Part shown: in pieces, positions 7,602 through 61,970 of the stretch
How the letters are laid out: each line of letters starts with the position of its first letter
How positions within the stretch are numbered: position 1 is the first letter of the stretch
NCBI GenBank assembly: GCA_026415435.1
Contig: JAOAHC010000014.1
Coordinates: 1-64,000, forward strand
Length of the DNA: 64,000 nucleotides
From: Clostridia bacterium
GTDB taxonomy: Bacteria; Bacillota; Clostridia; TANB77; CAG-465
Direction: 5' to 3'
Position numbers and translations under genes: made by a program
The notes under the pieces: model-generated
The model's database searches: none
Seen by the model: the letters and a program-made list of their open reading frames with translations, nothing else
Told to the model about the DNA's origin: nothing

Positions 7602-8378
7602 ATGTTGTGTGTTGATAAAATTAAAATAGATGACCAATATGGAGTAGATTTTCTAGAAATATCTTTTACACTAAAAGATAGCACAGAAGACATCACAGAA
7701 TATCAATTCAACATATTAAGATCAAACAACTCTGATGACGAATATTTTGTTATAGCAACAGACATAAAAGATTTTGTATATAAGGACAATAGTGTTAACT
7801 TATATAACACAATGATAAAATATTATTATAAAATAGAGATTATCAACAAGGTAACTGGAGAAAAAATATTGTCAGATCCGAAAATATATACTGGGAGAGA
7901 GCCAGATCAATATGCCGAAGCTTTAATAGAAATCAATAACATATATTTAGATAATGTAATCGATAATGAAGAAGTATATCTTTTAAAAAGAAAAAGAACC
8001 GGAAAACTTTGTGATTGCTATGACGATGTAAGAGGAAGATCAAGAATTATTAATTGTCCAAATTGTTACGGTACTAAATATGTTGGTGGATATTATAAAC
8101 CACAAAAACTAAAGGTTGCTTATTATAATTCGGTTGGTAAATTACCACGTTTTGAAATAAACGACACCGGAGAAAGTGATTCATCTATACAATTATGGAC
8201 TTCAAATTATCCTGTCATACAGAATGATGATATTATCATTGATAGAAATAATAACAGATATATTATTAACAATTGGCAACCAACTTATAAAAATTTTTAC
8301 CTCGTAAAGCAAGTTTTCCAGATGCAGAAGCTACCAAAATCAAACATTATTTATAAATTTCCTGTAGAAATAAAATAA
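7602..8378 (+). CDS. Neck-region protein with zinc-binding Cys cluster
   Basis: A 258-residue protein. The N-terminal 110 residues look like a fibronectin-III-like domain (ITEYQFNILRSNN...YYYKIEIINKVTGE). A four-cysteine cluster follows: Cys137 and Cys139 (CDC), then Cys152 and Cys155 (CPNC) with GTKYVGGYY, resembling a DnaJ-type zinc knuckle. The C-terminal part is beta-rich. Placement before the terminator-like and sheath genes suggests a head-closure or tail-completion role. A similar CxxCxGxxY module recurs in the gp25-like protein at 25785-26531. Confidence 0.45.
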   Translation: MLCVDKIKIDDQYGVDFLEISFTLKDSTEDITEYQFNILRSNNSDDEYFVIATDIKDFVYKDNSVNLYNTMIKYYYKIEIINKVTGEKILSDPKIYTGREPDQYAEALIEINNIYLDNVIDNEEVYLLKRKRTGKLCDCYDDVRGRSRIINCPNCYGTKYVGGYYKPQKLKVAYYNSVGKLPRFEINDTGESDSSIQLWTSNYPVIQNDDIIIDRNNNRYIINNWQPTYKNFYLVKQVFQMQKLPKSNIIYKFPVEIK

Positions 8379-8391
8379 GGTGGTGATTGCC

Positions 8392-8976
8392 TTGGTACCT
8401 ATAGTTGATATAGAATATGAATTAGAAAAGAAATTTGTAAAAGGGCTTAGAGCTATATTTGAAAATGATACTGATTTTAGTTATAATGATAATGATATAG
8501 ATACAAGAATAATTATAACAACCGAGTATCCAGAAAAAGATATTCCATCTAAAACGCCGCATATTATTGTTACAAATATAGCTTATCAAATTAATACACA
8601 ATCTTTTATTGGAAATAATTTTTATAGAGATATTAATTATATGGGTATGAAAAATGGTGCACAAGAATATGCAAATGTAATACCATATTCGCTATCACTA
8701 ATTTGTTTGGCTGAATGGGCATTAAGTAAAGATTTAGCAAATAGACTTGTTCAATATATAGGTTTTGTAGCTCATGATTATCTTAGTGAAGATTTGGGGT
8801 TACATGTTGATTCAGTATCAAAAAATCCAACTTCGCCATATAATCAATATCCTGAAAAATTATTTCAAACTACATTGTCAGTTCAGGGACATTATTACTG
8901 GACTGGTGCAAAAACCCTAAATGGTATTTTAACTGGAATTGATAAACCAGTTAAAAATATATATATAAAATATTAA
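8392..8976 (+). CDS. Putative tail terminator / completion protein
   Basis: A 194-residue protein immediately upstream of the sheath gene, the usual place for a tail terminator. The AAGGTGGTGAT site at 8377-8387 points to the TTG at 8392, with the spacing used by other genes here, rather than the GTG at 8380. Internal features include a TPHIIVTNIAYQI strand and a C-terminal LFQTTLSVQGHYYW strand. Assignment is by position and size. Confidence 0.45.
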   Translation: MVPIVDIEYELEKKFVKGLRAIFENDTDFSYNDNDIDTRIIITTEYPEKDIPSKTPHIIVTNIAYQINTQSFIGNNFYRDINYMGMKNGAQEYANVIPYSLSLICLAEWALSKDLANRLVQYIGFVAHDYLSEDLGLHVDSVSKNPTSPYNQYPEKLFQTTLSVQGHYYWTGAKTLNGILTGIDKPVKNIYIKY

Positions 8977-8994
8977 AAAGAGAGGTGTTAAGAA

Positions 8995-10356
8995 ATGCCA
9001 TATATTGAACCGGGCGTATATCTAAAAGCGGTCTCAAATCTTGTTACTGCTGGTGGTTTCACACCTGCATTAACCCCACTTGTTATTGGTTCTGGTGCTA
9101 CAATATTAAAAAGAACAGAAGTTATAACAAGGAGTACCGAAAGTTACGATGTATTACCAACCAATGCTGTTGATATAAAATTGGTTGGTTATACTGAAAA
9201 AAAGAATAACTTTGTTAAAGGTACTGATTACACTTTTGATCCTGCTAATCCTAACAAGATAACATGGCTTAGCGGAGGAAACAATCCAGCCAATGGCGAA
9301 AAATACACAGTTATATACACTTATGAAGTTAATGATGAACAATTTGTACCAAGATTAATAACAAGCTTAGAAGATATTGAAAAATATTATGGTACAGATA
9401 TTAAGACCGAAGAAGGCGGAGACATCAATAGAATAGCTCTTGCTTTAAGAATAGTTCTTGGAATGGGAGCAAAATCAGTATATGCTTTACAAGTAAAACC
9501 TAATAAAATAACAAAAAAAGTTACGGCTGTAGAGTATCAAGAAGCTCTTGATAAATATGCTAAGTTTATAAATGATGTATGGAGAATAGTTCCTGTTGAT
9601 CTTGATGACAATATAAATGGTGTCATTGATGCTCATGCAAGAACAATGTCAGGATGGGAAGAAAGAATGGAAAGATGTGTTGTGTATGGTAAGAAGCATG
9701 ACGAACTAACTTCTTTTGATGATGTTCTTGCAACAATAGGTGGGTATGCTACATCCAAATCAAATAAAAGAGCGACAGTTATATATCCCGATAAAGCTAC
9801 AATGCTTCTTGATGATGGAGCTTATCACGAAGTAGATGCACCATTTATAGCGGCAGCATATGCTGGACTTGAAGCATCTTTACCAGTTCAACAATCAAAA
9901 ACTAGATCAAAGATAACAATATTTAACGAATTAAAAGGTATTAAGATGACAAGAACCCAAAAGAATGCATTAGCTGAAAAAGGTGTAATGATACTTGAAC
10001 AGCCTTATGGTCCAGGAACAGATATTATTATAAGACATCAATTAACTACAGACATGACTAACGCACAAACAAGAGAAAATTCACTTCTTGGTATAACTGA
10101 TTATTGTTCAAAATATTTAAGAACTTCTGTTGAACAATATATCGGAAAATACAATATTACACCTGACACAATATCTAGAGTAAAAGGAAGTTTAAGCTCT
10201 GCATTATCACAATTAACAAATGATGGGGTTATTATATCTGGCGTTATAAAGTCTTTAGCTCAAGATGTTAATAATCCAGACACATTGTTAGTTGAAGTAG
10301 AAATACTTCCACCATATCCATGCAACTACATCAAGATAACATTGTATGTTGACTAA
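8995..10356 (+). CDS. Tail sheath protein
   Basis: Polymerises around the tail tube and contracts at infection. The 453-residue product begins MPYIEPGVYL, the typical N terminus of phage sheath proteins, and has the conserved C-terminal region (LRTSVEQYIGKYN, then VEVEILPPYPCNYIKITLYV). A central variable domain spans about residues 85-330. It is followed by the tube gene, as in most myoviruses. GAGAGGTG sets the start. Confidence 0.9.
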   Translation: MPYIEPGVYLKAVSNLVTAGGFTPALTPLVIGSGATILKRTEVITRSTESYDVLPTNAVDIKLVGYTEKKNNFVKGTDYTFDPANPNKITWLSGGNNPANGEKYTVIYTYEVNDEQFVPRLITSLEDIEKYYGTDIKTEEGGDINRIALALRIVLGMGAKSVYALQVKPNKITKKVTAVEYQEALDKYAKFINDVWRIVPVDLDDNINGVIDAHARTMSGWEERMERCVVYGKKHDELTSFDDVLATIGGYATSKSNKRATVIYPDKATMLLDDGAYHEVDAPFIAAAYAGLEASLPVQQSKTRSKITIFNELKGIKMTRTQKNALAEKGVMILEQPYGPGTDIIIRHQLTTDMTNAQTRENSLLGITDYCSKYLRTSVEQYIGKYNITPDTISRVKGSLSSALSQLTNDGVIISGVIKSLAQDVNNPDTLLVEVEILPPYPCNYIKITLYVD

Positions 10357-46421: not shown

Positions 46422-46449
46422 AAGGATAAGTTTAGAATAACTTATCCTT
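46422..46449 (-). terminator. Intrinsic terminator of primase-helicase gene
   Basis: An 11-bp stem (46422-46432 with 46439-46449), 6-nt loop, then TTTTGTTTTTT on the minus strand. The stop codon lies at its edge. Confidence 0.85.
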
Positions 46450-49400
46450 AACATCACTAGAATTACTCTGTGTTTCTTGATTTTCAAGAGTTAAAAATTC
46501 GTTAGATATGTCTATAAAATCTCTGAAGTAAAATTTATAATGGTATACTTTTGGTTTTGTATTTCCTTTAAATTCCTTTATTAGATCTTCATTCTCGATT
46601 GTAACAACTTTTCTTTTGTAATCACCTTCTTTGAATTTAAATACAGTTTTTATCCATCTAGGAATAAGTCTTGCAAATGCTGTATCTCCAGTCATTATTT
46701 CTTCAATAAAACATTTAAAGTGAATTACATTTACTTCAAACCAACCCTCATCAATATTGTGTTTTATTGGCTCTTGATATTTATGGTTGGAAGTTATTGT
46801 ATATTCCTTATCTTTGTCAGGGACTAGCCCATACAATTCTTTTGCTATTGCTGGCACAGCCCTCTTTATTATTCCTTCAGGCGTATCATTATCTATATCG
46901 TCCTTAGTAACAACCAGTGTTTCATTATAAAAATTAATAAGGGCTCTCTCGTATTCGCCGATTAACTCATCTTCATTGATTTCTGGGTTTCTTTGCTTCA
47001 GCATAATTCTTTCGTCGGTATCAACTAATCTAGCTGTTGCTTGTATAGGTGTAAGTATTTGCGATAATCTTGCGTTACCTGTTTCGAATAAGCTATTATT
47101 GTATATTTTATGAAGTTCTTGGAAGTTTTCTAATGCCGATATAGCACATCTACTTGTTAATGCTCTTATTTCGTCAAGTTTTTCGGCAAGATAATATTTT
47201 GGATCCTCCATCTTTGTATGTTTTGTAACATTCAATCTATATGTGTTTATTTGAATACACCTATCAGCTATAACATCTTCAAGACCAAATATATTGCTAA
47301 TTATTTTTGGACCATATACATTAAATCCTTCAACTGCATTTTTTTCTTTATTAAACCTGTATATGGAACCGCTTCTACTATACCCACCTTTTAATGCAGC
47401 AGCCATTGTTGAGTCTTGTGTTTTACTTCTTGAAGTAAGGTTTTCCATTTCATCAAGTATTATTGTTCCGCCCTCTATTGACACCATCCTAAATAATGAT
47501 GACTCTGAAATATCTACAGCCATTTTAGCATCAAATGCATACATATATATGACTGTATCTAATATTGATTTGCCGGAACCTTTTTGCCCATTTAAAAATA
47601 GATAAGGTATCTGTCCAAACAACTCATAATAGTATGTTGCGTAAATATATAATGCCAAAACTTTATAAGTGTTATCATCGCTCGTGTAATAAAATTTTCT
47701 TATTCCTTCTTCTATTTGTCTTATAAGCACACTTGGTTTAAGCTCTTCATTAGGTATTTCACCATTAATATACTTTTCAACTGTTTCTTGAGTTAAAGAA
47801 CATTCTCTTAAATCTAATATTGCTTCATTTACTTCAAAAGGTAGCTCATATTTGTTATCTACAAGTAACAAACACTGACTATCTTTTCTTTTAAGTAAAT
47901 CAAGCCTTATTAAAGATTTGTCGTTTCTTAAAAGATAAGGTAATTTTCTTTTTACGTCTCCGTCAATTTTTACATAGGTGAAATACATATATGCATCATT
48001 GTTTTTTACATTGAAATACTGACATATTTTCATTTTAGGTATATCTGTAAATGAAATTGATGCTGATTTGTTTTGAATATCATTTACTTCCTTCAATATC
48101 GCATCAATAACATTTTCAGAGCCATCTGAAGACTTTAGTTTAATTTTCAATTTATTAATCAAACTCTCTTCATTACCTGATTTATATAGTGCTTCAGCAA
48201 GCATTTTTATAATAGTGTCCTTTTTAGATGAATACCAATATATATCTATTAGTTCGTCTATTGTTTTGTTTTCTAGCCCTGAATTAAAATATTCCTCTAT
48301 TTTGTCGTGCAAATAAAAATTAAATGGTTTCATTTTTGCTTTGCACTTCATAAGAGAAATATCTTCTTCTCTGTCGTTCAATTTTCCATCAACATAGTAA
48401 CTAACAGTACCAATTAATTGTCCTTTTTCGTTCTTGCCTTTTATTGTAAATTCTAATTTCTTAAATCTATTTGCTATTACCCAATTATTACCTTCGTGTT
48501 TTATTCTGTAATTTTCAGTAACAACAGGTACTGCTTCGCTAGCAAGAACATCCCATGATTTTTTGTTTGACACTGAAGATGTATAATATTCGTCAATATC
48601 TTTAAAATGATCAGGGAAGACCACCTTTCTTATATCTTTGTCCGGGAACTTTTCATTTAGTATTTGATGATATCTTTCTCCTGCGCTATCATTATCAAAG
48701 CATTGATAAATGATAGCTTCAGCCTTGTCTAATATCTTTAACTGGTCATTATCATCACTTACTGATATATTTCCTCCTGTTGCACAGACATTGGCACACC
48801 CATTTTCCCAAAGAGCAGCAACATCGTGTTCTCCTTCAACGATAACAAAAGGCTTCTTAAAACTGAAGCCAGGACAAAAATACATTGCTTTGTTACCTAT
48901 TGAATAACCCTCTATTATATCTCCTTGAATTTCGTTTTGAAATTCATCCTTTTTTATATATCTTATTTTAAAAGGATTTTTGGTATTAATTCTTACGATG
49001 TCTTTTGTTATTGGATGTTTATAAAAGAAAACAAATAGACCTTCTGGAACCCATATTCTTGCCGATTTTATTTCTTCTTTTGTATATCCTTCAGCCAAAA
49101 GTTCATGATATAGGTCAAGATAACCGAACGAAAAACCAAACTTAAAGTGTTTTAAAGTATCCTCTCTTCTTTTTCTAACATTTAGCATATAGTTTAATGG
49201 AGTTATAAGACTACCTTTGTATTCATACTCTTTTTGACAAGTCATGAGTTGTTTATGGTAATGTTGTTCTGCTTTAAACATTATACTTTGTTGTCTTTGA
49301 TGTTTTTCATAATTGTTCATGTCGTCTTTTGAGCCAGCAGGAAACTTAAGACCTGTATAGTCATCAAGTTGTTTAATAGCTTCCGATATACTAACACCTT

Positions 49401-49659
49401 TTATGTTTGTCGCATAATAATACCATGCGTTTATATGTGTTCCTGACCAATCACAAGATCCGCTAAAACAATGTACTGTATTTCCTTTTACAGTGCAACA
49501 ATCATTATGTCCGCATACAGGACATCTATTCACTCTGTAACTATCAGAGCCTATTTTCTTTATTTGTTCTGGATTATAAAACTTTTGATAAAAATCTTCA
49601 ATGTTATCACAAATGATATTTGCTGTTTTTTCATACCATTCTAACTTATTGTATGTCAT
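46432..49659 (-). CDS. Primase-helicase (CHC2 zinc, TOPRIM, AAA+ ATPase)
   Basis: A 1075-residue replication protein. The N terminus has a CHC2-type zinc finger (Cys46 and Cys49 in CPVCGHNDCC, then CFSGSC). A TOPRIM domain follows (FVIVEGEHDVAAL near 267; CFDNDSAGERY near 320). The C-terminal half carries an SF3/D5-like ATPase with Walker A NGQKGSGKS (about 686-695) and Walker B GTIILDEMEN (about 733). It should unwind and prime phage DNA for the DnaE polymerase. AAGGGGGAAGGAG sets the start. Confidence 0.85.
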   Translation of the reverse strand: MTYNKLEWYEKTANIICDNIEDFYQKFYNPEQIKKIGSDSYRVNRCPVCGHNDCCTVKGNTVHCFSGSCDWSGTHINAWYYYATNIKGVSISEAIKQLDDYTGLKFPAGSKDDMNNYEKHQRQQSIMFKAEQHYHKQLMTCQKEYEYKGSLITPLNYMLNVRKRREDTLKHFKFGFSFGYLDLYHELLAEGYTKEEIKSARIWVPEGLFVFFYKHPITKDIVRINTKNPFKIRYIKKDEFQNEIQGDIIEGYSIGNKAMYFCPGFSFKKPFVIVEGEHDVAALWENGCANVCATGGNISVSDDNDQLKILDKAEAIIYQCFDNDSAGERYHQILNEKFPDKDIRKVVFPDHFKDIDEYYTSSVSNKKSWDVLASEAVPVVTENYRIKHEGNNWVIANRFKKLEFTIKGKNEKGQLIGTVSYYVDGKLNDREEDISLMKCKAKMKPFNFYLHDKIEEYFNSGLENKTIDELIDIYWYSSKKDTIIKMLAEALYKSGNEESLINKLKIKLKSSDGSENVIDAILKEVNDIQNKSASISFTDIPKMKICQYFNVKNNDAYMYFTYVKIDGDVKRKLPYLLRNDKSLIRLDLLKRKDSQCLLLVDNKYELPFEVNEAILDLRECSLTQETVEKYINGEIPNEELKPSVLIRQIEEGIRKFYYTSDDNTYKVLALYIYATYYYELFGQIPYLFLNGQKGSGKSILDTVIYMYAFDAKMAVDISESSLFRMVSIEGGTIILDEMENLTSRSKTQDSTMAAALKGGYSRSGSIYRFNKEKNAVEGFNVYGPKIISNIFGLEDVIADRCIQINTYRLNVTKHTKMEDPKYYLAEKLDEIRALTSRCAISALENFQELHKIYNNSLFETGNARLSQILTPIQATARLVDTDERIMLKQRNPEINEDELIGEYERALINFYNETLVVTKDDIDNDTPEGIIKRAVPAIAKELYGLVPDKDKEYTITSNHKYQEPIKHNIDEGWFEVNVIHFKCFIEEIMTGDTAFARLIPRWIKTVFKFKEGDYKRKVVTIENEDLIKEFKGNTKPKVYHYKFYFRDFIDISNEFLTLENQETQSNSSDVKDKLF

Positions 49660-49759: not shown

Positions 49760-50527
49760 CTAATTTTGGCAAGACGTTTGTGCTATCGCCCAAAATATCT
49801 CTGGCTTATTATTGTTTTTGTCTTGACCAAATAATATAACCGGACAATTTGCATCTGTGCGAAACTTAATGCCGACTATATCATAACAATTAAGGCTATT
49901 TGTTAATATTTCGTAAACATAAAAAGCATTAATTGAACACATTGAATTTTTCTCTGTTCTAATTTTTGTTTGATATATCGGAGAACAAAACATTTTTAGG
50001 GAAATCAGAGACTCCTTAACACTGATAGATTTTTTTATTGGTTTGCAGTGAATTAATATATTGTCATAGTCCGTACTTATATTCATAACTATCTTTGCTC
50101 GCTTTGCTTGGCTATCATATTGATTAACAATAAAGTCAATCAGCTCTATCCTATTGAAGAAAAAACAGTTTTCTGTATATCTGTTAAAAAAATAGTTTAT
50201 CTTCATAGGAAAATTATTTTTCATTAATTCAGCTAGAACTGATTGACTTTTTGTATATTTCCCTATATTTAACAAAAATTTTTCTGCATTAAATTCGTTT
50301 ATATTCTGATTTTCTTCTTCAGTGTATAACCAAAACACCGGAGTTGTTAATGGCAAGTTATCGTTTATAGTTATTCTTCCGATGATGTGGTTGTTTGTTG
50401 TGTATGCATATTTTTCATGGAACATGACTCCACATAAATCAATATCTTCAAACCCAGACCCCTTCACCTTGCTATATATTTTTTTCATAAAACTGAAATG
50501 TTCAACTGCTTGAAATTTTGTATTCAT
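49760..50527 (-). CDS. Possible second sliding-clamp-like protein
   Basis: A 255-residue beta-rich protein. The C-terminal half (MCSINAFYVYEILTNSLNCYDIVGIKFRTDANCPVILF in pieces, ending 'EIFWAIAQ') follows the closing strand pattern of DnaN-like clamps. It lies at the far end of the operon that begins with another clamp-like gene. It could be a divergent or inactive clamp. Confidence is limited by weak sequence signals. Confidence 0.4.
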   Translation of the reverse strand: MNTKFQAVEHFSFMKKIYSKVKGSGFEDIDLCGVMFHEKYAYTTNNHIIGRITINDNLPLTTPVFWLYTEEENQNINEFNAEKFLLNIGKYTKSQSVLAELMKNNFPMKINYFFNRYTENCFFFNRIELIDFIVNQYDSQAKRAKIVMNISTDYDNILIHCKPIKKSISVKESLISLKMFCSPIYQTKIRTEKNSMCSINAFYVYEILTNSLNCYDIVGIKFRTDANCPVILFGQDKNNNKPEIFWAIAQTSCQN

Positions 50528-50531
50528 AATA

Positions 50532-50834
50532 TTATTCCTTTAGCAATATCTGAAAATCATACCAGTTATCAAATAGCAAGATTTGGGCTTCATAACAAAC
50601 AGTTCCAAAATAACCATGGGCGCATTTATGTGCTGATAGTACCTGATGAACCGTTTGAGGTTCTATTTTTGAAATAATATCTGGGCCATATATAAAATCA
50701 TAAGCTTCTTTTTCAGCAATTAATTTAGCTGTCTTTACAATATTGTTTACAGAAGGAACAATATTATCTTTTCTTAACATTTCTATATAAACTCTCATAA
50801 TTAGCTTCTCTATTATGCTTTCATTTTCATTCAT
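50532..50834 (-). CDS. Clamp-motif family protein 6
   Basis: A 100-residue helical protein of the local six-member family. The N-terminal half (LIMRVYIEMLRKDNIVPSVN) matches the family pattern Y...L...N.(I/F)P. The motif AQILLF (Gln84) lies 16 residues from the end and resembles bacterial clamp-binding peptides (QLxLF). The start overlaps the previous stop as ATGA, indicating translational coupling. Confidence 0.55.
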   Translation of the reverse strand: MNENESIIEKLIMRVYIEMLRKDNIVPSVNNIVKTAKLIAEKEAYDFIYGPDIISKIEPQTVHQVLSAHKCAHGYFGTVCYEAQILLFDNWYDFQILLKE

Positions 50835-51148
50835 ACAATCATCTCCTCAAACATAATTATTTGAGAGTTATTTTTATGCTCTCCAAATGAGTTTGTAAAT
50901 TCTATGCGAAATTCATTGAGTATTATATCCTCTAACATCTCATTTATCTCGTATTTATTAATCATAAATCCTTTAAAAGTAAAAAATATTATTTTACTAT
51001 CAATTATGACATCAATTAAATTATCTTCGAACTCGTAAAAATCTATTGGCTCTCCAACAAACGCACCTTCACATCTTCTGTATGCTTCTCTTATAAATAT
51101 ATATATGTCGTTAGTTCCATCATATCCACTCATTATTAAGTTGCTCAT
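50831..51148 (-). CDS. Clamp-motif family protein 5
   Basis: A 105-residue acidic protein. The C terminus carries SQIIMFEEMIV (Gln96), nine residues from the end, matching the motif in its neighbours. The rest (FYEFEDNLIDVIIDSKIIFF) differs from the larger members, so it may share only the motif. AAAGGTGAT precedes the ATG. Confidence 0.5.
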   Translation of the reverse strand: MSNLIMSGYDGTNDIYIFIREAYRRCEGAFVGEPIDFYEFEDNLIDVIIDSKIIFFTFKGFMINKYEINEMLEDIILNEFRIEFTNSFGEHKNNSQIIMFEEMIV

Positions 51149-51154
51149 ATTAAA

Positions 51155-51796
51155 TCACCTTTTAAACAAGACTCTTGTTTTTATAGCTTCCCCTTGATGG
51201 TCTTTATCAGAAAAGAAATCTGTGCAGCTTGTTATTTGATGTATGTGAATTTCTGGAAACATAAATATTTGACAATCATTTTTCACTACTGAATATTCTA
51301 TACTGCTAAAATCATAATATATCTCATGTTCTGAAAATAATTCATAATATAATTTATTTACATCAAGAATTGAAGATATATAATCTGGAACATCTAAAAA
51401 ATAATCATAGTACAGATCGCTATAGTATGAGTTAGCTAATTCCATTATATTTTCGTCTATATAAAAATCAATATTTTCTGGATCATCTTCTGCATACAGT
51501 TCTAATAATTGTTCATGGAAATATACATAAAAATCTTCAGTAGCTATTTCAGTAATTATCTCCAAATTATAATAAAATACTTCATCTAGAATGTGGTTCA
51601 TCAAGGCATCCTTATATTTAAATGTTGCTATTTCTTTTTTATAATGCTCTAATACAAAGTTTTTATGGTGTTCAAAATTATGTTTGTTTGCTGGGCTTAT
51701 TAACTGCAAAATTAATTCTTCAATTCTTTGTTGATAGTCATTTTTGTAATCATAATGTGTTAAATGAGCGTTGTTGCTAGCTACTGTTAAATCCAT
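51155..51796 (-). CDS. Clamp-motif family protein 4
   Basis: A 213-residue acidic, Tyr-rich helical protein. It shares with proteins 2 and 3 the order ISP.N, a Y...L/I helix, YNLEI..EIA..DFY, a YYYD/YYDYF segment, VNKLYYE, and the conserved NDCQIFMF (Gln176). These repeats show common ancestry. AAGGAGGTG sets the start. Confidence 0.6.
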   Translation of the reverse strand: MDLTVASNNAHLTHYDYKNDYQQRIEELILQLISPANKHNFEHHKNFVLEHYKKEIATFKYKDALMNHILDEVFYYNLEIITEIATEDFYVYFHEQLLELYAEDDPENIDFYIDENIMELANSYYSDLYYDYFLDVPDYISSILDVNKLYYELFSEHEIYYDFSSIEYSVVKNDCQIFMFPEIHIHQITSCTDFFSDKDHQGEAIKTRVLFKR

Positions 51797-51813
51797 TTTA
51801 CTAAAACACCTCC

Positions 51814-52437
51814 TTAATTATTAACAATAGATATATTCAAAACTTCACTTTCTCTAATTTCATTTAATGCAAAGCTCATTTGTTCTAAATGAACATCTGA
51901 AAACATTAATATTTGACAATCATTTTTATAAATTTCAACATTGTTATCTGGTCTAGAAAAATATTGATACAAAATATGATCAGAAGAACATTCATAACAT
52001 AATTTTTTTTCATCTAACACATCTGTTATAAACTCATCATTTTCTGCAAAGAAATCATAATAATAACTAGACAATAAGTTGTCTGCTATTTGAGCTATGC
52101 AGTATTCTATATCACTACTGCTTAAATTATATTCTGTATTTTTATAATGATTTGTATAAAAGTCTATCTCTGCAATTTTGTGCATTATGTTCCAATTATA
52201 ATTCATAACTTGTATTGATATTTCATCAATAGAAGGAATTTTATTGTTTTTTATAAGTGTATTGTGATAAAACATAATTATTAGTTTTTCAGCCTCATAC
52301 ATAAATGGATGATTATATGGAGATATTATATCTTTTAATAGCATGTCTTTCTTTTCTTCAAAAGGAATATCAAATAAATCCACTGATCTTTCTTCGTTTA
52401 TTATTCCTCTTATTACTAATTCTTTCGAGTTAACCAT
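51814..52437 (-). CDS. Clamp-motif family protein 3
   Basis: A 207-residue paralogue of its neighbours: 'ISPYNHPF', 'NKIPSIDEIS', YNWNIMHKIAEIDFY, 'SSYYYDFFAEND', 'EKKLCYE', and NDCQILMF with Gln175. A GGCGGTGA site precedes the ATG. Acidic and helical; no catalytic motif visible. Confidence 0.6.
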   Translation of the reverse strand: MVNSKELVIRGIINEERSVDLFDIPFEEKKDMLLKDIISPYNHPFMYEAEKLIIMFYHNTLIKNNKIPSIDEISIQVMNYNWNIMHKIAEIDFYTNHYKNTEYNLSSSDIEYCIAQIADNLLSSYYYDFFAENDEFITDVLDEKKLCYECSSDHILYQYFSRPDNNVEIYKNDCQILMFSDVHLEQMSFALNEIRESEVLNISIVNN

Positions 52438-52454
52438 CTTTTCACCGCCATTTC

Positions 52455-53075
52455 CTATGTTGTTACTAGTGAATTTCTATTGTTGTTGAAAAAATAGAGT
52501 TCTCCAGAATTTGTTGTAAAACCATATTCTAACATTTCATTAAACATTATTGTTTGACAATCATTAATAATAATATCTGTGTTTTTCTCCAATGCTGACA
52601 TCTTATCAATCATTAACTCTGCTTCAATATAATCAAATAATGTATCATCTCCATCTGAATAATATGTTAATTTATTTTCGTTTAAAATTGCTGCAACCGC
52701 ACATTCCATGTTGGCACAATCATATTGATAAAACATCTCTGCAATACTATCTGCTTCTTCTCCAATCATTTCTTCATATTTTTCTGGTGTTAAATACATT
52801 ACATCATTATTTTCGGAAATGTTTATAAATGCTATTTGAGTAAATATTTCATAATTATATGTTTCAACTTCACTCAAAACTTCACAAAAATACGGAAATC
52901 TATTGTGAAGTTTTATCAATTTAAAATAAAATTTCACAATATTTTCTTCGAGTCTTATTTGATCTTCTACACTATATGGTTTAGATAAAAGAATTTCATT
53001 ATACAAATCACTCACGCTATTTGTTGGTTTTTTCCAATATTCTAAAATCATTAAATCATATTGATATTGATTCAT
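52455..53075 (-). CDS. Clamp-motif family protein 2
   Basis: A 206-residue paralogue. AGGAGGTG supports ATG 53075 rather than the GTG at 53084. It keeps 'LHNRFPYFCEV', YNYEIFTQIAFINIS, 'NENKLTYY', and NDCQTIMFNEM (Gln174). Acidic, helical, cytoplasmic. Confidence 0.6.
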   Translation of the reverse strand: MNQYQYDLMILEYWKKPTNSVSDLYNEILLSKPYSVEDQIRLEENIVKFYFKLIKLHNRFPYFCEVLSEVETYNYEIFTQIAFINISENNDVMYLTPEKYEEMIGEEADSIAEMFYQYDCANMECAVAAILNENKLTYYSDGDDTLFDYIEAELMIDKMSALEKNTDIIINDCQTIMFNEMLEYGFTTNSGELYFFNNNRNSLVTT

Positions 53076-53087
53076 TATAAACACCTC

Positions 53088-53588
53088 CTAGTAACACATT
53101 TCATAAAACATTATTATTTGTGGTTTATACATACTATCTAAATCTTTTTTTGATGGCTTTAAAGATAATTCGGATAATCCTTTTATAAATGGCAATCCTT
53201 GCTCTAACAAAATTTGTGTTACAATATCTGATAATCCATACGATATACCATGAATATAATTGCCAAGAATTATATCTATTTCGTCAGACGTATACTGATA
53301 ACTACTATAAAAATCTCTTATTATCTCCATATTTTCTTCATCTATAAAATCAGCTATTTCATAGACATCTGGAATATATCCATACTCATTCTTATATGCA
53401 AGCATTCTATCTTGATAAATTTCAAGAACTCTTTCTTTTAATCTTGCCATATTATATGGAGTGCACATATATCTATCTAATAGCATTAAAAAACTATCCT
53501 GTACCATTGTAGGAACAGGATAGTTGACAGGACTAATAGCTTTTCCTATTATTTGTATTAATGCAAGTCTATCCTCAAATTCGTTCAT
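53088..53588 (-). CDS. Clamp-motif family protein 1
   Basis: A 166-residue family member. AAAGGAGATGATAC supports ATG 53588; the in-frame ATG at 53636 lies inside the clamp gene. It has 'ISPVNYPV', 'KNEYGYIPDVYEIADFI', 'ENMEIIRDFYSSY', and ends KPQIIMFYEMCY with Gln157, nine residues from the terminus. Confidence 0.6.
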   Translation of the reverse strand: MNEFEDRLALIQIIGKAISPVNYPVPTMVQDSFLMLLDRYMCTPYNMARLKERVLEIYQDRMLAYKNEYGYIPDVYEIADFIDEENMEIIRDFYSSYQYTSDEIDIILGNYIHGISYGLSDIVTQILLEQGLPFIKGLSELSLKPSKKDLDSMYKPQIIMFYEMCY

Positions 53589-53592
53589 TGTA

Positions 53593-54513
53593 TCATCTCC
53601 TTTGTATTCCATAAGATATATCAAGTGGTGCAACAAATATTGTTATTTGTAAATCTTCATCCATTTCTTTTATATTTCTGAACATTACAAAATCTTTAAA
53701 TTCTTTTCCAAAGTGCATTTCAACGAATTTGCTTTTTGATGCCAACAACACTTTTGATAGGTCATAAAGCATTGTTGCATCTATGTGTATTGGTGGCATG
53801 TAGAAATTTTCAACAGGTGCAATTGCGTTTGAACATAAAATCATGTCTTGTGGTATCCCTATCATTTTATGAACGCTTTCAAGATTTTTTGGATCAAAAC
53901 CAGCTTCAGAATAAACAATACCCATTCTAACCTTGCCATATGGTTCAATAACATTTGCATAGATTGCTTCGTCTGCCTCTCTTAACTTACATCTGTATGG
54001 TGTGTCTAGTTTTACAAATTGTTCAGGAATAAATGACATATTGTCAATCCATACTGGCTTTGTCATTCCTGGTGCTTTAAATTCAAGTCTTTGTCCATTG
54101 TGTCTAAATCTTAAGAAGAAATCACCATCTTCTTTGAATGTTTGTGCAAATACAACTCTTGATTTCTTTCTTTTGTCTTGTGGTAATTCACCAAGTCTGT
54201 TTATAAAATTTGTTATAGGAAATGCTACACTTCCAGTAAATTCAAAGCTAGATATTCTTGCTATTACATCATCAAGAGATATTCTCCATGGTATTTTTGT
54301 ATATTTGTTTTCAAAAAAGCTAAAGAACTCTCCTTCTGGCTTTATATCTTTTAGTCCTTCAACAACTATACAGAATGTTCCTGATACTACATATGCTTTG
54401 TTATCCCTGAAAGCAACTCCCCAATAGCTGTTTGCTGGTGGATTATATTCTACAGCTGGTCTTAATAAAAAGTCTAAAATTTGTGGTTCTTGAATAACAA
54501 TTTTGTTTTCCAT
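53593..54513 (-). CDS. Putative DNA sliding clamp
   Basis: A 306-residue beta-rich protein. Three repeated beta-alpha-beta segments, a central 'PITNFINRLGELPQD' helix, 'IDATMLYDLSKVLLAS' near the end, and a C-terminal 'DLQITIFVAPLDISYG' strand pattern resemble DnaN-like clamps. As a ring around DNA it would hold the phage DnaE. It heads an operon with six proteins carrying clamp-binding-like motifs, which supports the call. AAGGAGGAG precedes the ATG. Confidence 0.5.
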   Translation of the reverse strand: MENKIVIQEPQILDFLLRPAVEYNPPANSYWGVAFRDNKAYVVSGTFCIVVEGLKDIKPEGEFFSFFENKYTKIPWRISLDDVIARISSFEFTGSVAFPITNFINRLGELPQDKRKKSRVVFAQTFKEDGDFFLRFRHNGQRLEFKAPGMTKPVWIDNMSFIPEQFVKLDTPYRCKLREADEAIYANVIEPYGKVRMGIVYSEAGFDPKNLESVHKMIGIPQDMILCSNAIAPVENFYMPPIHIDATMLYDLSKVLLASKSKFVEMHFGKEFKDFVMFRNIKEMDEDLQITIFVAPLDISYGIQRR

Positions 54514-54547: not shown

Positions 54548-54579
54548 AAAGAGAAAGTTTAGCTATAAACTTTCTCTTT
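54548..54579 (-). terminator. Leader hairpin/attenuator before clamp gene
   Basis: A perfect 14-bp stem (54548-54561 with 54566-54579), 4-nt loop, followed on the minus strand by ATTATTTTTTTT. It lies between motif copy d and the clamp gene, so it may act as an attenuator. Confidence 0.75.
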
Positions 54580-56255: not shown

Positions 56256-56912
56256 TTATTTTATAACTTCTACTGTGCTGATTTTATTATCATCCATTGT
56301 AACATATATTTTCGAATCTGTCATTGAAGCCAGATATTCATTGTGGGTAACTATAATTATTTGTCTTCCAAAATCTTGCGATATATTCTTAATAAATTCA
56401 GAAATCATAGGTATATATTCTTTACTAACCATTTTAAAAGGTTCATCCATTATTATTGGACCATCTATAAATGGTTCATATGCTTGCATTACCACAATTC
56501 TTAAAGCTATACTAACTATGTCAATAACACCTCCGCCATTTGCCTCCATAGGATCTGTTTCTACTCCACTTACAGTATTTCTTATTTTTACTTCAGCATA
56601 TGGCTTTCTTATTCCTTTACCTTCATACAAGTATATTTTCATTTCATAGTCAGCCCCTAAAGAGTATTGAAGTGCAGCAGTTCCTAATTCTTCAAGTCTT
56701 GTTCTTGCTATTTCTCTTTGTTTTGATGACATTTTTTGAAGAACAGCACTACACTTTTCAAGTTCTGTTATTTTTAAATCCTCTAGTTGTCTTTCTAGAT
56801 CTTCTCTTTTTTTAGTAAGCTCTGATTCTTTGGATCTTTTTATGATATATTCATCATTTACTTTCTTAAGTTGTAGTCCTATCTCGTTCACTTTTTGATC
56901 TATCATTAACAT
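56256..56912 (-). CDS. Rad50/SbcC-like ATPase, C-terminal half
   Basis: A 218-residue protein with a short N-terminal coiled coil and the C-lobe of an SMC/Rad50 ATPase: a degenerate signature (EANGGGVIDIVSIALRI), Walker B with Asp156-Glu157 (GPIIMDEPF), and H-loop His190 (IIIVTHNEYLA). It lacks Walker A. The matching N-lobe is the separate gene at 61989-63299. The start overlaps the Myb-repeat gene by 47 nt, after a GGTGGAGGG site. Probably a recombination or end-processing ATPase. Confidence 0.75.
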   Translation of the reverse strand: MLMIDQKVNEIGLQLKKVNDEYIIKRSKESELTKKREDLERQLEDLKITELEKCSAVLQKMSSKQREIARTRLEELGTAALQYSLGADYEMKIYLYEGKGIRKPYAEVKIRNTVSGVETDPMEANGGGVIDIVSIALRIVVMQAYEPFIDGPIIMDEPFKMVSKEYIPMISEFIKNISQDFGRQIIIVTHNEYLASMTDSKIYVTMDDNKISTVEVIK

Positions 56913-58116
56913 AAACAGCGTCCCTCCACCATAACATATAATTTATTTTTTCTCTTTTTTCTTCTTCTGTCCTGTAATAAAATGTAAATCTTGTTCCAAC
57001 ATATTTTTTTATTGCAAATTTCCATATGCTTAACTTTTTCATTTTAGCAACAATAGATGCCTTGCTTCGCTTTAATATTTTTTTTATTTTGGTCCAATGC
57101 AATGTATTGTAATTTTCTAGTAAAAATGACACTTCCCAATCCTGCCATTTTTTAGATGTATTTTTTTGTTTTAAATGCTTGAATGATATCTTGTATGATT
57201 TTATATTGTGCATTGATGCATATGTTGATACAGAACCAATTGTTCTGCCAAGTTCAGCAGCTATTACTGCATTTGTTTTTCTACCAAAGTTATCTTTTAA
57301 ATATTTTACTTGATTTGATGTCCAAGGCATTAATTTTCCACGTCTATATAATCTCATTGTATGTATTTTTCCGCTTACAGATCTTTTTGTCCTTCCAAGT
57401 ATTTTAGATATCTCGTCGATAGTTTTATCTGTTTCAAGATAAAGATATTTTAAAGTATTTTCTTCTTCTTCTGACCATATCTTATTTCTTTTTACACCAA
57501 GATAATTTGCCTTCTTTATTATAGCCATTTCTGATCTACCAAGTTTTTCAGATATTAACGAAATATTTTCTGACGGATAGTATTTTTTAATATATTCTTC
57601 CTCTTCTTTTGTCCATCGCTTTAAAAAGATGTTTTTTTCTTTTTCTTTTTTCTTTTTTCTTTTTTCTTTTTTCAAGTTAAGTTTAGAAGCTTTTGTTCTT
57701 ATGGATTGCATACTTCTGTTTAAATAATCAGACAATTCAATATTTGATTTTATAGTATAATTTTTTATAAGATAATTTTCTTCATCTATTGTCCAAGGTC
57801 TATTATTACTTTCTGATAATTCAATTTTATGTGCTTTTTCAAATATTGATTTTTTGCTTCTTTTAAGGTGTTTTGCTATATCTTCCACAGGGATTTTGTT
57901 ATAGTTGTTTTTTAAATAATCTAATTCATATTCTGTCCAAGGTTTGCCTTTCTTCCACAATTGTTGATTTCTTTTCAGTCCTAATTCGCTAGCCTTATTT
58001 TTTATTGATTTCCATGTTCTATTTAATCTTTTTATAATCTTTTCTCTGTCTTCATTTTCAAAATTGCAAATCAAATAGTCTAAATCTTCGTTTGTCCATA
58101 AAACAACCTTTCCCAT
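56866..58116 (-). CDS. Protein of seven tandem Myb-like HTH repeats
   Basis: A 416-residue basic protein of seven similar units of about 50 residues. Each starts at a conserved Trp (7, 60, 108, 168, 214, 265, 324) in a (P/K)WT..E..(Y/F)L pattern and ends in a recognition-like helix (LGRS..SI..KA..L.L). This is a Myb/SANT-like or GcrA-like helix-turn-helix fold. The C terminus is basic. Seven linked DNA-binding units suggest wrapping of an extended site, as for a nucleoid-like or origin-binding protein. Target unknown. GGGGGTG sets the start. Confidence 0.75.
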   Translation of the reverse strand: MGKVVLWTNEDLDYLICNFENEDREKIIKRLNRTWKSIKNKASELGLKRNQQLWKKGKPWTEYELDYLKNNYNKIPVEDIAKHLKRSKKSIFEKAHKIELSESNNRPWTIDEENYLIKNYTIKSNIELSDYLNRSMQSIRTKASKLNLKKEKRKKKKEKEKNIFLKRWTKEEEEYIKKYYPSENISLISEKLGRSEMAIIKKANYLGVKRNKIWSEEEENTLKYLYLETDKTIDEISKILGRTKRSVSGKIHTMRLYRRGKLMPWTSNQVKYLKDNFGRKTNAVIAAELGRTIGSVSTYASMHNIKSYKISFKHLKQKNTSKKWQDWEVSFLLENYNTLHWTKIKKILKRSKASIVAKMKKLSIWKFAIKKYVGTRFTFYYRTEEEKREKINYMLWWRDAVYVNDRSKSERDRTTT

Positions 58117-58430: not shown

Positions 58431-61400
58431 TTACCAAGATAGTATTTTTGAATTAAATAAATTCATATCGAATTTATTTAGATTTACCCAATAGTTTTTA
58501 TTTAACAGAACTCTTATATTATCATGCTCTATATATATAGGTGTGTTTCCTTGCACTAAATCATTGTTTTCTATATATTTCATAACATCTACACTTTGTT
58601 CAGGGTTAGCAAGCTTAATTATAAGTCTATCAACTATTTCATCTTCGACAGGTAAAACATTTTCACATATTATTGTTGGTGGTTCTTCTGATTCTATTTT
58701 TAAATATCCTTCAATTTTATAAATATTATCTGGCTTTAATTTATCTTTTATATCTTCGTATGTTTGAGGCCATATAATCATTCTTGCTATTCCATTCAAA
58801 TCTTCTACAACTACGTTTGCCATTAGAGTCTTTTTCTTGGTTACTCTCGGCACTATTTCGTTAATAATTCCAATAAACTTAACTCTTTGCCTATCTCTTA
58901 CATTTGATGCAATCATTATTGCACCAGTACCTTCGTCAACTTCGTAATCGATGTCAGATGTTTTAAAGTTAGAATATGTTTTAATTGAATAAGCATATTT
59001 ATAAAGCGGATTTCCTGTTAAATAAAGCCCTAGATATTTTTTCTCTAACCTCAACATAACTTCTTCTGGCAATTCTTTGAGCTTTGGTATTAAATCATCT
59101 ATTTTAAGTCTTTCTTCAAAATCAAAACTATCGATTTTTCCGCTTTTAATTGCTCTTGTTCTTGCTTGTTTTACCTTTGCCAACCTATCTGTTATATCAT
59201 CTAATGCAGCTAAGATTTGAGATTTGACAACGCCAAGGCTGTTAAAAGCACCAATTGATACGAGGGCTTCTAGAGTTTGTTTGTTTATTACATCAGCAGT
59301 TCTGATTAAAAAATCTGAAAATGACTCAAATTTTCTCTCATCTCTTATTGGCTTAATAGCTTTCAATACGTTTTCGGAAGCATGCTTAACATTTAATGAA
59401 TACGCTATTTTGCCATTTGGTAATGGAATAAACTTATCTACACTTAAGTTTATGTCTGGTTCTATAATTTCTATTCCAAGTTCCCTTCTGCAATAATTTA
59501 TATAGTTTGCTATTCTGCTTTGATTACCCTGAACAGAATTCATTAATGCAGCCATGAACTCAACAGGATAGTAATAAGCAAGCCAAGCTGTAACGTAAGC
59601 TACATATGCGTAGGCAGCAGCATGGGATTTGTTAAAACAATATGAAGCAAAATCCTCCATCAAATCAAAAAATTGCTCCAGTTCCTCTTTTGAGTGTCCA
59701 AGTGCCAATCCGCCAGGTATCGCATGAGGATACTTTACTATTCTCCCTTCTTCATCAACATCCTCTTCTTTTCTTCCATATATGAACCATTGCTTATGAA
59801 GTGGAATAAGTTTCTTTTTCTTTTTACTTATAACTTTTCTAAATCCATCAGAGTCTGATTTATCGTATCCAGCAATTTCAACGACAGTACGCATACATTG
59901 TTCTTGATAACACAAAACACCATATGTTTCTTTTAAAATAGGCTCTAGTTTAGGAAAAGGATATATTATTTTGTTTGGGTTGCGTTTATTGTATAAAAAT
60001 CGAGGTATTTCTTTCATTGGTCCAGGTCTATATAAAGAAATTCCAGCTATTATGTCTTCTATGCTGTCTGGTTTAAGTTCCTCCATAAACTTTGTCATTC
60101 CTGCACCTTCAAGTTGGAATATACCAACTGTTTTCCCATCTTTAATCAATTTAAGTGGTGCAAGATCCTCAACCTTATACAATTGATCAAGGTCAATATG
60201 TTTGTTGTGATTTTTTTCAATAAACTCAATACATTCTCCAATAACGCCCAATGTCTTTAAACCAAGAAAGTCCATTTTTAAAAGACCTAATTCCTCAAGT
60301 ATATTTTTATCGTATTGAGCAACTATAGCACCGTCATTATTCCATAAAGGAACATACTTTGTTAAACCCTGCTTATCTGTTATCAGTACACCCGCTGCGT
60401 GCGTTGATGTGTTTAATGGCAATCCTTCAAGAGCCATTGATACGTCAAGCAAATACCTTATTTTTTCATCTGTATCATATTTTCTTTTTAATTCAGGGTT
60501 TAATTCAAGTGCCTTAAATATTGTTATGTCTGGTTCAGCTGGTATCATCTTCGCTATTTGGTCGTATAATGAATATTCATAATTTATTGCTTTTCCAACC
60601 TGTCTTATTACCGATCTTGCAGCCATTGTTCCGAATGTTATTATTTGACAAACTGAATTTCTGCCATACTTTTCTATAACATAATCTATTACTTCTTGTC
60701 TCCTGGTATCTTGGAAGTCGCTATCTACATCAGGCATTGATACTCTGCTTGGATCAAGGAACCTTTCAAATATAAGATTGTATTTTATTGGATCAATTTT
60801 TGTTACACCTAAAGCATAGAGTAATATCGAACCTGCTCCACTTCCTCTTCCTGGACCAACAAGTATTGGTTTCCACCCTGCAGGAGAAGGATCACCATAG
60901 TTTTTCGAACCTTCTTTGCAAAATCTAAAAAAGTCCCAAACTATAAGGAAATAGTTTACGTATCCCATTTTGTTAACAACAGAAAGTTCGTATTCGGCTC
61001 TTTCTATTATTTCTTGCGGCAATGGTGTTCCATATAATTTTTCTAATCCTTGATACGATAACATCCTAAGAAAATCAAAGTTATCCCCATTAAAATCTTT
61101 TGGGATTTCAAATGGCGGTAATTTGTTAACACCAAACTCAAAACTAACATGGCATCTCTCGGCAATTTTAACTGTATTTTCAAGAGCTTCTGGCACATAT
61201 TCAAATAAATTCCACATTTCTTCAGCTGATTTAACATAAAATTCATCTGTCGGATATCTCTTTCTTTTTTCATCATCAACAGTTGTTTTTGCTTGAATTA
61301 CCATAAGTATATCGTGTTCTTTATAATTATCTCTAGTTATATAATGACAATCATTTGTAACCACAAGTGGTATTCCAGTCTCTTCACTTAGTCTTATAAG

Positions 61401-61970
61401 TTGTGTGTTAACCATAACTTGTTCAGGCATTCTATGATCTTGAAGCTCTAAAAAGAAATTTCCTCTACCAAATATCTCATCGTATTCTAATGCTTCTCTT
61501 TTTGCACCCTCATAATCATTATTTAATAGCATTTGTTGAACAGATCCACCAAGGCAAGCTGATAGTGCTATCAATCCTTTTGAATGCTCTCTTAATTTTC
61601 TTTTATCTGTTCTTGGTCTGTAATAAAAACCATTTATTGCAGCATCACTAGCTATTTCTAATAAATTTTGGTATCCTTCGTTATTTTCACAAAGAAGTAC
61701 TAAGTGATAATTTGCATTGTCTATATGTGCTTCTTTAACAGTATTAAATCTTGGTGCTACATATGTTTCCATTCCTGGTATCACTTCAATTCCATCAGCT
61801 TTTAATTCTTTGTAAAAATTTACAACACCAAACATTACTCCATGATCTGTAATAGCTACTTTTTTCATGCCAAGTTCCTTTAATCTCTTGCTTAATTCCT
61901 TAGGTTTTATCATAGCATCAGATAAAGAGTATTGTGTGTGTAAATGCAGATGCACAAAGTCTCTATTCAT
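58431..61970 (-). CDS. dnaE: DNA polymerase III alpha subunit, DnaE type
   Basis: A 1179-residue bacterial-type replicative polymerase. An N-terminal PHP domain (FVHLHLHTQYS, ITDHG) is followed by the C-family palm with Asp414, Asp416 and Asp418 (MPDVDSDF), the 'GPGRGSGAGS' and 'STHAAGVLI' motifs, and a helix-hairpin-helix and OB-fold C terminus. No exonuclease insertion is visible, so it is DnaE, not PolC. The usual clamp-binding site (Q..LF after the HhH region) reads SGKIDSF here. It should replicate phage DNA with the primase-helicase and clamp. GGGGGAG precedes the ATG. Confidence 0.95.
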   Translation of the reverse strand: MNRDFVHLHLHTQYSLSDAMIKPKELSKRLKELGMKKVAITDHGVMFGVVNFYKELKADGIEVIPGMETYVAPRFNTVKEAHIDNANYHLVLLCENNEGYQNLLEIASDAAINGFYYRPRTDKRKLREHSKGLIALSACLGGSVQQMLLNNDYEGAKREALEYDEIFGRGNFFLELQDHRMPEQVMVNTQLIRLSEETGIPLVVTNDCHYITRDNYKEHDILMVIQAKTTVDDEKRKRYPTDEFYVKSAEEMWNLFEYVPEALENTVKIAERCHVSFEFGVNKLPPFEIPKDFNGDNFDFLRMLSYQGLEKLYGTPLPQEIIERAEYELSVVNKMGYVNYFLIVWDFFRFCKEGSKNYGDPSPAGWKPILVGPGRGSGAGSILLYALGVTKIDPIKYNLIFERFLDPSRVSMPDVDSDFQDTRRQEVIDYVIEKYGRNSVCQIITFGTMAARSVIRQVGKAINYEYSLYDQIAKMIPAEPDITIFKALELNPELKRKYDTDEKIRYLLDVSMALEGLPLNTSTHAAGVLITDKQGLTKYVPLWNNDGAIVAQYDKNILEELGLLKMDFLGLKTLGVIGECIEFIEKNHNKHIDLDQLYKVEDLAPLKLIKDGKTVGIFQLEGAGMTKFMEELKPDSIEDIIAGISLYRPGPMKEIPRFLYNKRNPNKIIYPFPKLEPILKETYGVLCYQEQCMRTVVEIAGYDKSDSDGFRKVISKKKKKLIPLHKQWFIYGRKEEDVDEEGRIVKYPHAIPGGLALGHSKEELEQFFDLMEDFASYCFNKSHAAAYAYVAYVTAWLAYYYPVEFMAALMNSVQGNQSRIANYINYCRRELGIEIIEPDINLSVDKFIPLPNGKIAYSLNVKHASENVLKAIKPIRDERKFESFSDFLIRTADVINKQTLEALVSIGAFNSLGVVKSQILAALDDITDRLAKVKQARTRAIKSGKIDSFDFEERLKIDDLIPKLKELPEEVMLRLEKKYLGLYLTGNPLYKYAYSIKTYSNFKTSDIDYEVDEGTGAIMIASNVRDRQRVKFIGIINEIVPRVTKKKTLMANVVVEDLNGIARMIIWPQTYEDIKDKLKPDNIYKIEGYLKIESEEPPTIICENVLPVEDEIVDRLIIKLANPEQSVDVMKYIENNDLVQGNTPIYIEHDNIRVLLNKNYWVNLNKFDMNLFNSKILSW

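Follow-up and report, generated by a model that had tools for sequence, protein, structure and literature searches.

A tandem array of small acidic phage proteins with clamp-binding-like motifs points to a possible, previously undescribed mode of replication-clamp control

Sliding clamps are hubs, and their partners are normally unrelated single-copy proteins that carry one docking motif each. What, then, is the role of six small phage proteins that are encoded one after another, share one clamp-binding-like motif and lie between two genes that may themselves encode clamps? This locus was found in a window of 64,000 nucleotides (the whole stretch of DNA analysed here), which belongs to a contig of 77,679 bases in a 1.45-Mb assembly. 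On its minus strand, from position 54513 to 46432, nine closely packed genes follow one another, namely A, the six genes B to G, H and a toprim primase-helicase. The features of the region are, in window coordinates:

58431 to 61970, minus strand: phage DNA polymerase III alpha (DnaE-like), without the internal clamp-binding motif that its relatives have
54548 to 54579, minus strand: terminator-like hairpin upstream of A, from a pattern scan, a consensus match only
53593 to 54513, minus strand: gene A, putative sliding-clamp-like protein, 306 aa, first of the run, with an orthologue of 33% identity at the equivalent position of the related locus L003
53088 to 53588, minus strand: gene B, 166 aa, motif QIIMF; its orthologue B' was found with the motif masked (E ~1e-10)
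53106 to 53120, minus strand: clamp-binding-like motif of B, QIIMF, from the sequence
52455 to 53075, minus strand: gene C, 206 aa, NDC-QTIMF, paralogue of D and E with the motif masked
52542 to 52556, minus strand: clamp-binding-like motif of C, QTIMF, from the sequence
51814 to 52437, minus strand: gene D, 207 aa, NDC-QILMF, paralogue of C and E
51901 to 51915, minus strand: clamp-binding-like motif of D, QILMF, from the sequence
51155 to 51796, minus strand: gene E, 213 aa, NDC-QIFMF, paralogue of D, with an L003 orthologue X' (E ~5e-7)
51257 to 51271, minus strand: clamp-binding-like motif of E, QIFMF, from the sequence
50831 to 51148, minus strand: gene F, 105 aa, QIIMF, top match F' (E ~1e-3)
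50849 to 50863, minus strand: clamp-binding-like motif of F, QIIMF, from the sequence
50532 to 50834, minus strand: gene G, 100 aa, EAQILLF, orthologue G' (E ~7e-11)
50571 to 50585, minus strand: clamp-binding-like motif of G, QILLF, from the sequence
49760 to 50527, minus strand: gene H, second putative clamp-like protein, 255 aa, with a 31% identical L003 orthologue
46432 to 49659, minus strand: toprim primase-helicase, directly downstream of H, 58% identical in L003

The primase-helicase probably belongs to the same transcription unit as A to H. The hairpin at 54548-54579 is a plausible boundary of this unit, and the pattern scan detected no further minus-strand terminator-like hairpin down to the primase start.

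An earlier note on this DNA had pointed to six consecutive motif proteins, and we confirmed that the minus-strand reading frames B to G (50532-53588), which lie between A and H, all carry Q-(I/T)-x-(M/L)-F, in the order QIIMF, QTIMF, QILMF, QIFMF, QIIMF and QILLF. The NDC that it saw before the motif in three proteins is indeed present in C, D and E. The distance of 9-35 residues that it gave between the motif and the C terminus needs correction, as 5, 28, 28, 33, 5 and 12 residues follow the motif in B to G. In order to estimate how often such a cluster would arise by chance, the letters of each protein were shuffled 2000 times and scored for Q..[LM]F; a mean of 0.21 of the six window proteins, and at most 3, carried the motif, as compared with the 6 of 6 observed. 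The corresponding cluster of a relative phage gave 7 of 7 against 0.26 expected (maximum 3). Together, the shuffles and the second genome rule out a chance origin of the array. Outside the clusters the motif was present twice in the rest of the 77.7-kb contig and in one other protein of the 204 encoded by the 160-kb relative, so that elsewhere in either phage it is found at chance level only. Two such occurrences were treated as chance: QSIMF at residue 124 of the primase, which is not conserved since L003 has QAILR there, and QNDMF in G385 (8030-10210), contained in a protein recognised by eye as anaerobic ribonucleotide reductase-like.

The relative, IMGVR_UViG_3300031722_000008 (160,540 bases), was the only one that we obtained when IMG/VR was searched at the protein level, the primase serving as query. 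Its primase is 58% and its DNA polymerase 57% identical to those of the window, and its locus, L003, has the matching operon, in which seven motif proteins are enclosed by an A' that is 33% identical to A and an H' that is 31% identical to H, with the primase coming next. The order A-B-C..F-G-H-primase is kept in both phages. The seven motifs read QIRMF, QIPMF, QQMMF, QIPMF, QIVMF, QQIMF and QQVMF. Beyond this pair the array appears to be rare. A, H, E, G and the primase had no match among 50,697 phage records, the IMG/VR scans returned at most that single contig, and neither the scans of GTDB contigs nor the samples at the order, class and phylum level provided a further array; the GTDB primase matches G142 and G127 were fragments without the cluster. 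No such cluster was present in the gut phage records and the Moorella phage MTATph1, which are relatives by DnaE, or in the Bacillus phages vB_BboS-125 and vB_BpsS-140. In addition, B to G showed no convincing match to Pfam, PHROGs, NCBIfam or PADLOC families, and no description of such an array was found in the literature searched, mostly without subscription papers.

The comparison of the 13 proteins (six from the window and seven from L003, ~15-37% identical) revealed that the motif Gln and Phe are the sole invariant columns of their alignment, a conservation that rests on two lineages because the array is present in only two genomes. Position 1 is Gln and position 5 Phe in 13 of 13 proteins, and position 4 is Met in 12 and Leu in one; position 2 is Ile in 9, Gln in 3 and Thr in 1, position 3 varies (R, P, I, L, F, M or V), and in 12 of the 13 an Asp or Glu stands two residues past the Phe. 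The extended consensus is N-x-(A/C)-Q-I-x-M-F-x-(E/D)-(I/L/M). The bodies have diverged, orthologues being 27-38% and paralogues 26-29% identical, and the motif aligned with itself in every pair tested. The lack of motif conservation in homologues had been named beforehand as a result that would refute the clamp-binding reading; what we found was the opposite, an invariant motif on diverged bodies. As the acidic +2 residue is written by all four codons (GAA, GAT, GAG and GAC) and positions 3 and 6 vary freely, selection acts on the protein; an element conserved at the DNA level is ruled out by the use of these four codons and by the variation of the flanking bases.

A further reading is that the motif belongs to the core of a fold common to these proteins and is conserved because it packs there, with no docking role. 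Relatedness was assessed with profiles built after removal of the motif and all residues behind it. With the motif masked, C, D and E remained linked (best pairs E 1e-7 to 1e-9), and G' matched the pooled C/D/E profile at E 3.7e-5, while G alone gave 0.01-0.1; from these profile matches G and G' are probably related to C, D and E. B and F had no significant link to the other window members in these masked profiles, their only relatives being the orthologues B' and F'. The proposal of at least four paralogues is thus firm for C, D and E and probable for G as the fourth, and it did not hold for B and F, which keep the motif without detectable paralogy. As C, D and E are true paralogues and G is probably related, shared structure could account for part of the conservation. 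However, position 3 tolerates both Arg and Pro, a Pro directly follows the Phe in several of the 13 proteins, and only 4-5 residues separate the motif from the C terminus in B, F and F', as against 12-50 in the others; the linker is variable. At the level of sequence, the tolerance of Pro and Arg, the Pro after the Phe and these near-terminal sites speak against a core strand and suggest an exposed or tail placement. We regard a purely structural role as highly improbable.

What would an exposed motif of this kind bind? According to a 2024 review, the clamp-binding motif (CBM) of bacteria begins with Gln; its tolerant position 2 is mostly aliphatic, any residue may stand at 3, position 4 is Leu or Met and position 5 Phe, Leu or Ile, and acidic flanking residues touch arginines close to the clamp pocket (PMC11139829). 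The resemblance to the bacterial beta-clamp binding peptide that the earlier note had proposed was upheld, since positions 1, 3, 4 and 5 and the acidic flank of the array motif agree with these rules as far as sequence can tell. In this the array proteins are like Pol III alpha, epsilon, Pol IV, Hda and MutL; in the same review Met at position 4 is found in the internal motif of alpha, QADMF, and in that of epsilon, QTSMAF, and a C-terminal placement in Pol II and Pol IV (PMC11139829). The known CBMs, however, are borne by single-copy enzymes, whereas here they occur in an array of small acidic proteins of unassigned fold, which are putative binders. In phage T4, gp55, gp33 and gp43 are not known to be a paralogue family or to form a tandem array beside the clamp gene, nor is the T4 clamp epitope known to be of the form Q-x-x-M-F. 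Even so, T4 offers a likeness, as these three proteins of one phage share similar, interchangeable C-terminal clamp epitopes, hydrophobic and acidic, the one of gp55 being joined by a divergent linker (PMC2988020). The T4 alpha-glucosyltransferase is another phage accessory protein that co-purifies with the phage sliding clamp gp45, although it is a single-gene enzyme located outside any such array (PMC13216743).

The likeness to clamp motifs could also have arisen by convergence, the motif being a docking peptide for a different target, such as a helicase or a hub protein of the phage. The extended consensus is broader than the textbook pentamer, and A and H are not proven clamps. On the other hand, every restricted position of the clamp motif agrees, including the acidic flank and the free position 3, the genes are set in a replication operon, and the same motif was lost from the polymerase. 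We regard such a target as improbable.

The identity of A and H is relevant at this point. The earlier note had called both clamp-like, a term for which sequence gave no support: neither protein had a sequence-profile match to DnaN, PCNA or gp45, and no sequence method links either of them to any clamp. A match of G549 to A (E 4e-4) was a false positive, an FeoB-like GTPase by eye. The fold lent the term weak support, with clamps as the main class of matches to the low-confidence AF2 models. Among the top 50 PDB matches of the A model in Foldseek, DnaN, PCNA and 9-1-1 chains were recurrent with non-significant E-values, and its named BFVD matches included phage and herpesvirus processivity factors, with phage clamps from E 0.016, likewise not significant. 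For the H model, whose C-terminal half has a beta-alpha-beta-beta-beta pattern, roughly every second one of the top 50 PDB matches was a sliding clamp (best clamp E 0.3). For both models the PDB clamp matches ranged from E 0.1 to 3, every PDB E-value being 0.08 or worse; with pLDDT values of 35.5 (A) and 36.4 (H) the models are formally uninformative, and they are not fully independent, as A was included in the alignment of H. On these models we lean slightly towards A and H being clamps, possibly very diverged ones that are invisible to sequence search. The clamp-binding reading of the note therefore stands in part, strongly where it concerns motif conservation and weakly where it concerns the clamp fold of the flanking proteins. 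Neither phage yielded a gene of the delta'-type clamp-loader family, so that a clamp of phage origin would depend on the loader of the host or on one that escaped recognition.

The polymerases provided a further clue. At the internal clamp-motif site the DnaE of the binned host reads QINLF, and the polymerases of the gut phage records read GQMSLF, GQMTLF and GQIDFF. The same site reads KIDSF in the window phage and KNKDFNF in its relative; judged from these alignments, the DNA polymerase III alpha of both array phages has lost its internal clamp motif. The polymerase of the Moorella phage MTATph1 is also without the motif, yet this phage has no array, and thus motif loss alone does not imply an array.

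We favour the reading, with a probability of roughly 0.48, that B to G act as adaptors that dock on the clamp of the phage itself. Each of them would be a small acidic protein in which a linker connects a fast-evolving body to a single short linear motif on the C-terminal side, Q-(I/Q)-x-M-F-x-(E/D), and this motif may occupy the pocket where a sliding clamp receives peptides. The six would be made from one replication operon together with the clamp-like A and H and the primase, and their most likely partner would be the phage's own clamp, which is favoured because the genes sit in that operon between conserved clamp-like genes and because the polymerase motif was lost. As adaptors, by analogy with T4, they might bring factors of replication and expression to the phage clamp or regulate them there. 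Since the polymerase lost its own internal motif, at least one member of the array may tether it in trans.

The main rival to this proposal is that B to G block the clamp of the host, filling its beta pockets and perhaps placing their acidic bodies in the basic DNA channel; host replication would be shut off, or host factors freed, and the motif-less phage polymerase would remain unaffected. The motif would fit the host pocket too, the host DnaE carrying QINLF, several diverged copies would suit an arms race, and the lack of a recognised phage clamp loader points in the same direction. So does acidity. All 13 motif proteins are acidic: by net charge per residue they rank 2, 3, 4, 6, 10 and 16 of 69 proteins in the window contig and 1, 2, 4, 5, 8, 14 and 20 of 167 in the relative phage (rank tests against the other proteins, p 1.7e-4 and 1.0e-5, respectively). 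There is a precedent in Gp168 of phage Twort, which occupies the beta-clamp DNA channel (PMC11139829). Like the putative role considered here, Gp168 is a phage protein that acts on a sliding clamp, in a channel that is basic; it differs in using this channel and not the peptide pocket, and the account given of it there mentions no multi-copy array (PMC11139829). The acidity of the array proteins is compatible either with plugging a basic DNA channel in the manner of Gp168 or with electrostatic steering to the pocket. Against blocking of the host clamp, the genes lie within a conserved replication operon, between genes that have orthologues, and not in a variable early takeover region, and Met, the residue preferred at position 4, is reported to give weaker binding to E. 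coli beta than Leu does (PMC11139829). On balance we consider host-clamp blocking unlikely.

A bolder and rather doubtful extension is that this replisome runs on a highly diverged, possibly hetero-oligomeric clamp formed by A and H, and that a dedicated, duplicating set of six or seven acidic docking proteins gives contacts in trans after the polymerase dropped its motif, so that the clamp would have partners that can be programmed. Were either the adaptor or the blocking reading true, six to seven consecutive genes for proteins with this motif as their one conserved feature, beside two candidate clamps and a polymerase without the motif, would represent a hitherto undescribed manner of wiring a replisome or of seizing the host clamp, and the array yields small candidate clamp ligands that are directly testable.

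As for the expression of the array, Shine-Dalgarno-like sites are present at nearly every gene, the strongest being those of A, B, C, E, G and the primase. The longest reading frame of B begins at 53636, but the ribosome-binding site AAAGGAG favours the ATG at 53588; likewise, the frame of C extends from a GTG at 53084, but AGGAGG favours the ATG at 53075. Finally, F shares 4 bases with G, whose ribosome-binding site, GAGGAG, is formed by the 3'-end codons of F.

The number of motif genes differs between the two phages carrying the array, as the relative phage IMGVR_UViG_3300031722_000008 harbors seven (at its locus L003, 6538-7868) versus six in the window. Since D' and E' of L003 lack a clear one-to-one counterpart in the window, the copy number of the array changes.

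In neither of the two array phages does DNA polymerase III alpha still have the internal QxxLF clamp motif; it has been lost there, whereas host DnaE and gut relatives retain it. This polymerase and a second window protein, whose L003 version is shorter, are as follows:

58431-61970, phage DNA polymerase III alpha (L038 in the relative phage)
56866-58116, 416-aa protein (phrog_323, D5-like regulator) built from HTH/SANT-like repeats

Immediately upstream of gene A, the putative sliding-clamp-like gene, lies a near-perfect 14-bp inverted repeat with a T tail (54548-54579), a possible terminator or attenuator where the operon begins.

Fragments of a related primase-helicase domain were detected in two same-order genomes (L035 10266-10721 and L036 9912-10679), with site-specific recombinase genes nearby; these fragments are probably mobile-element remnants.

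A textbook QLELF motif occurs in a 78-aa protein of Bacillus phage vB_BboS-125 (L081 38170-38406), 35 residues before its end, and this protein is present in one copy only.
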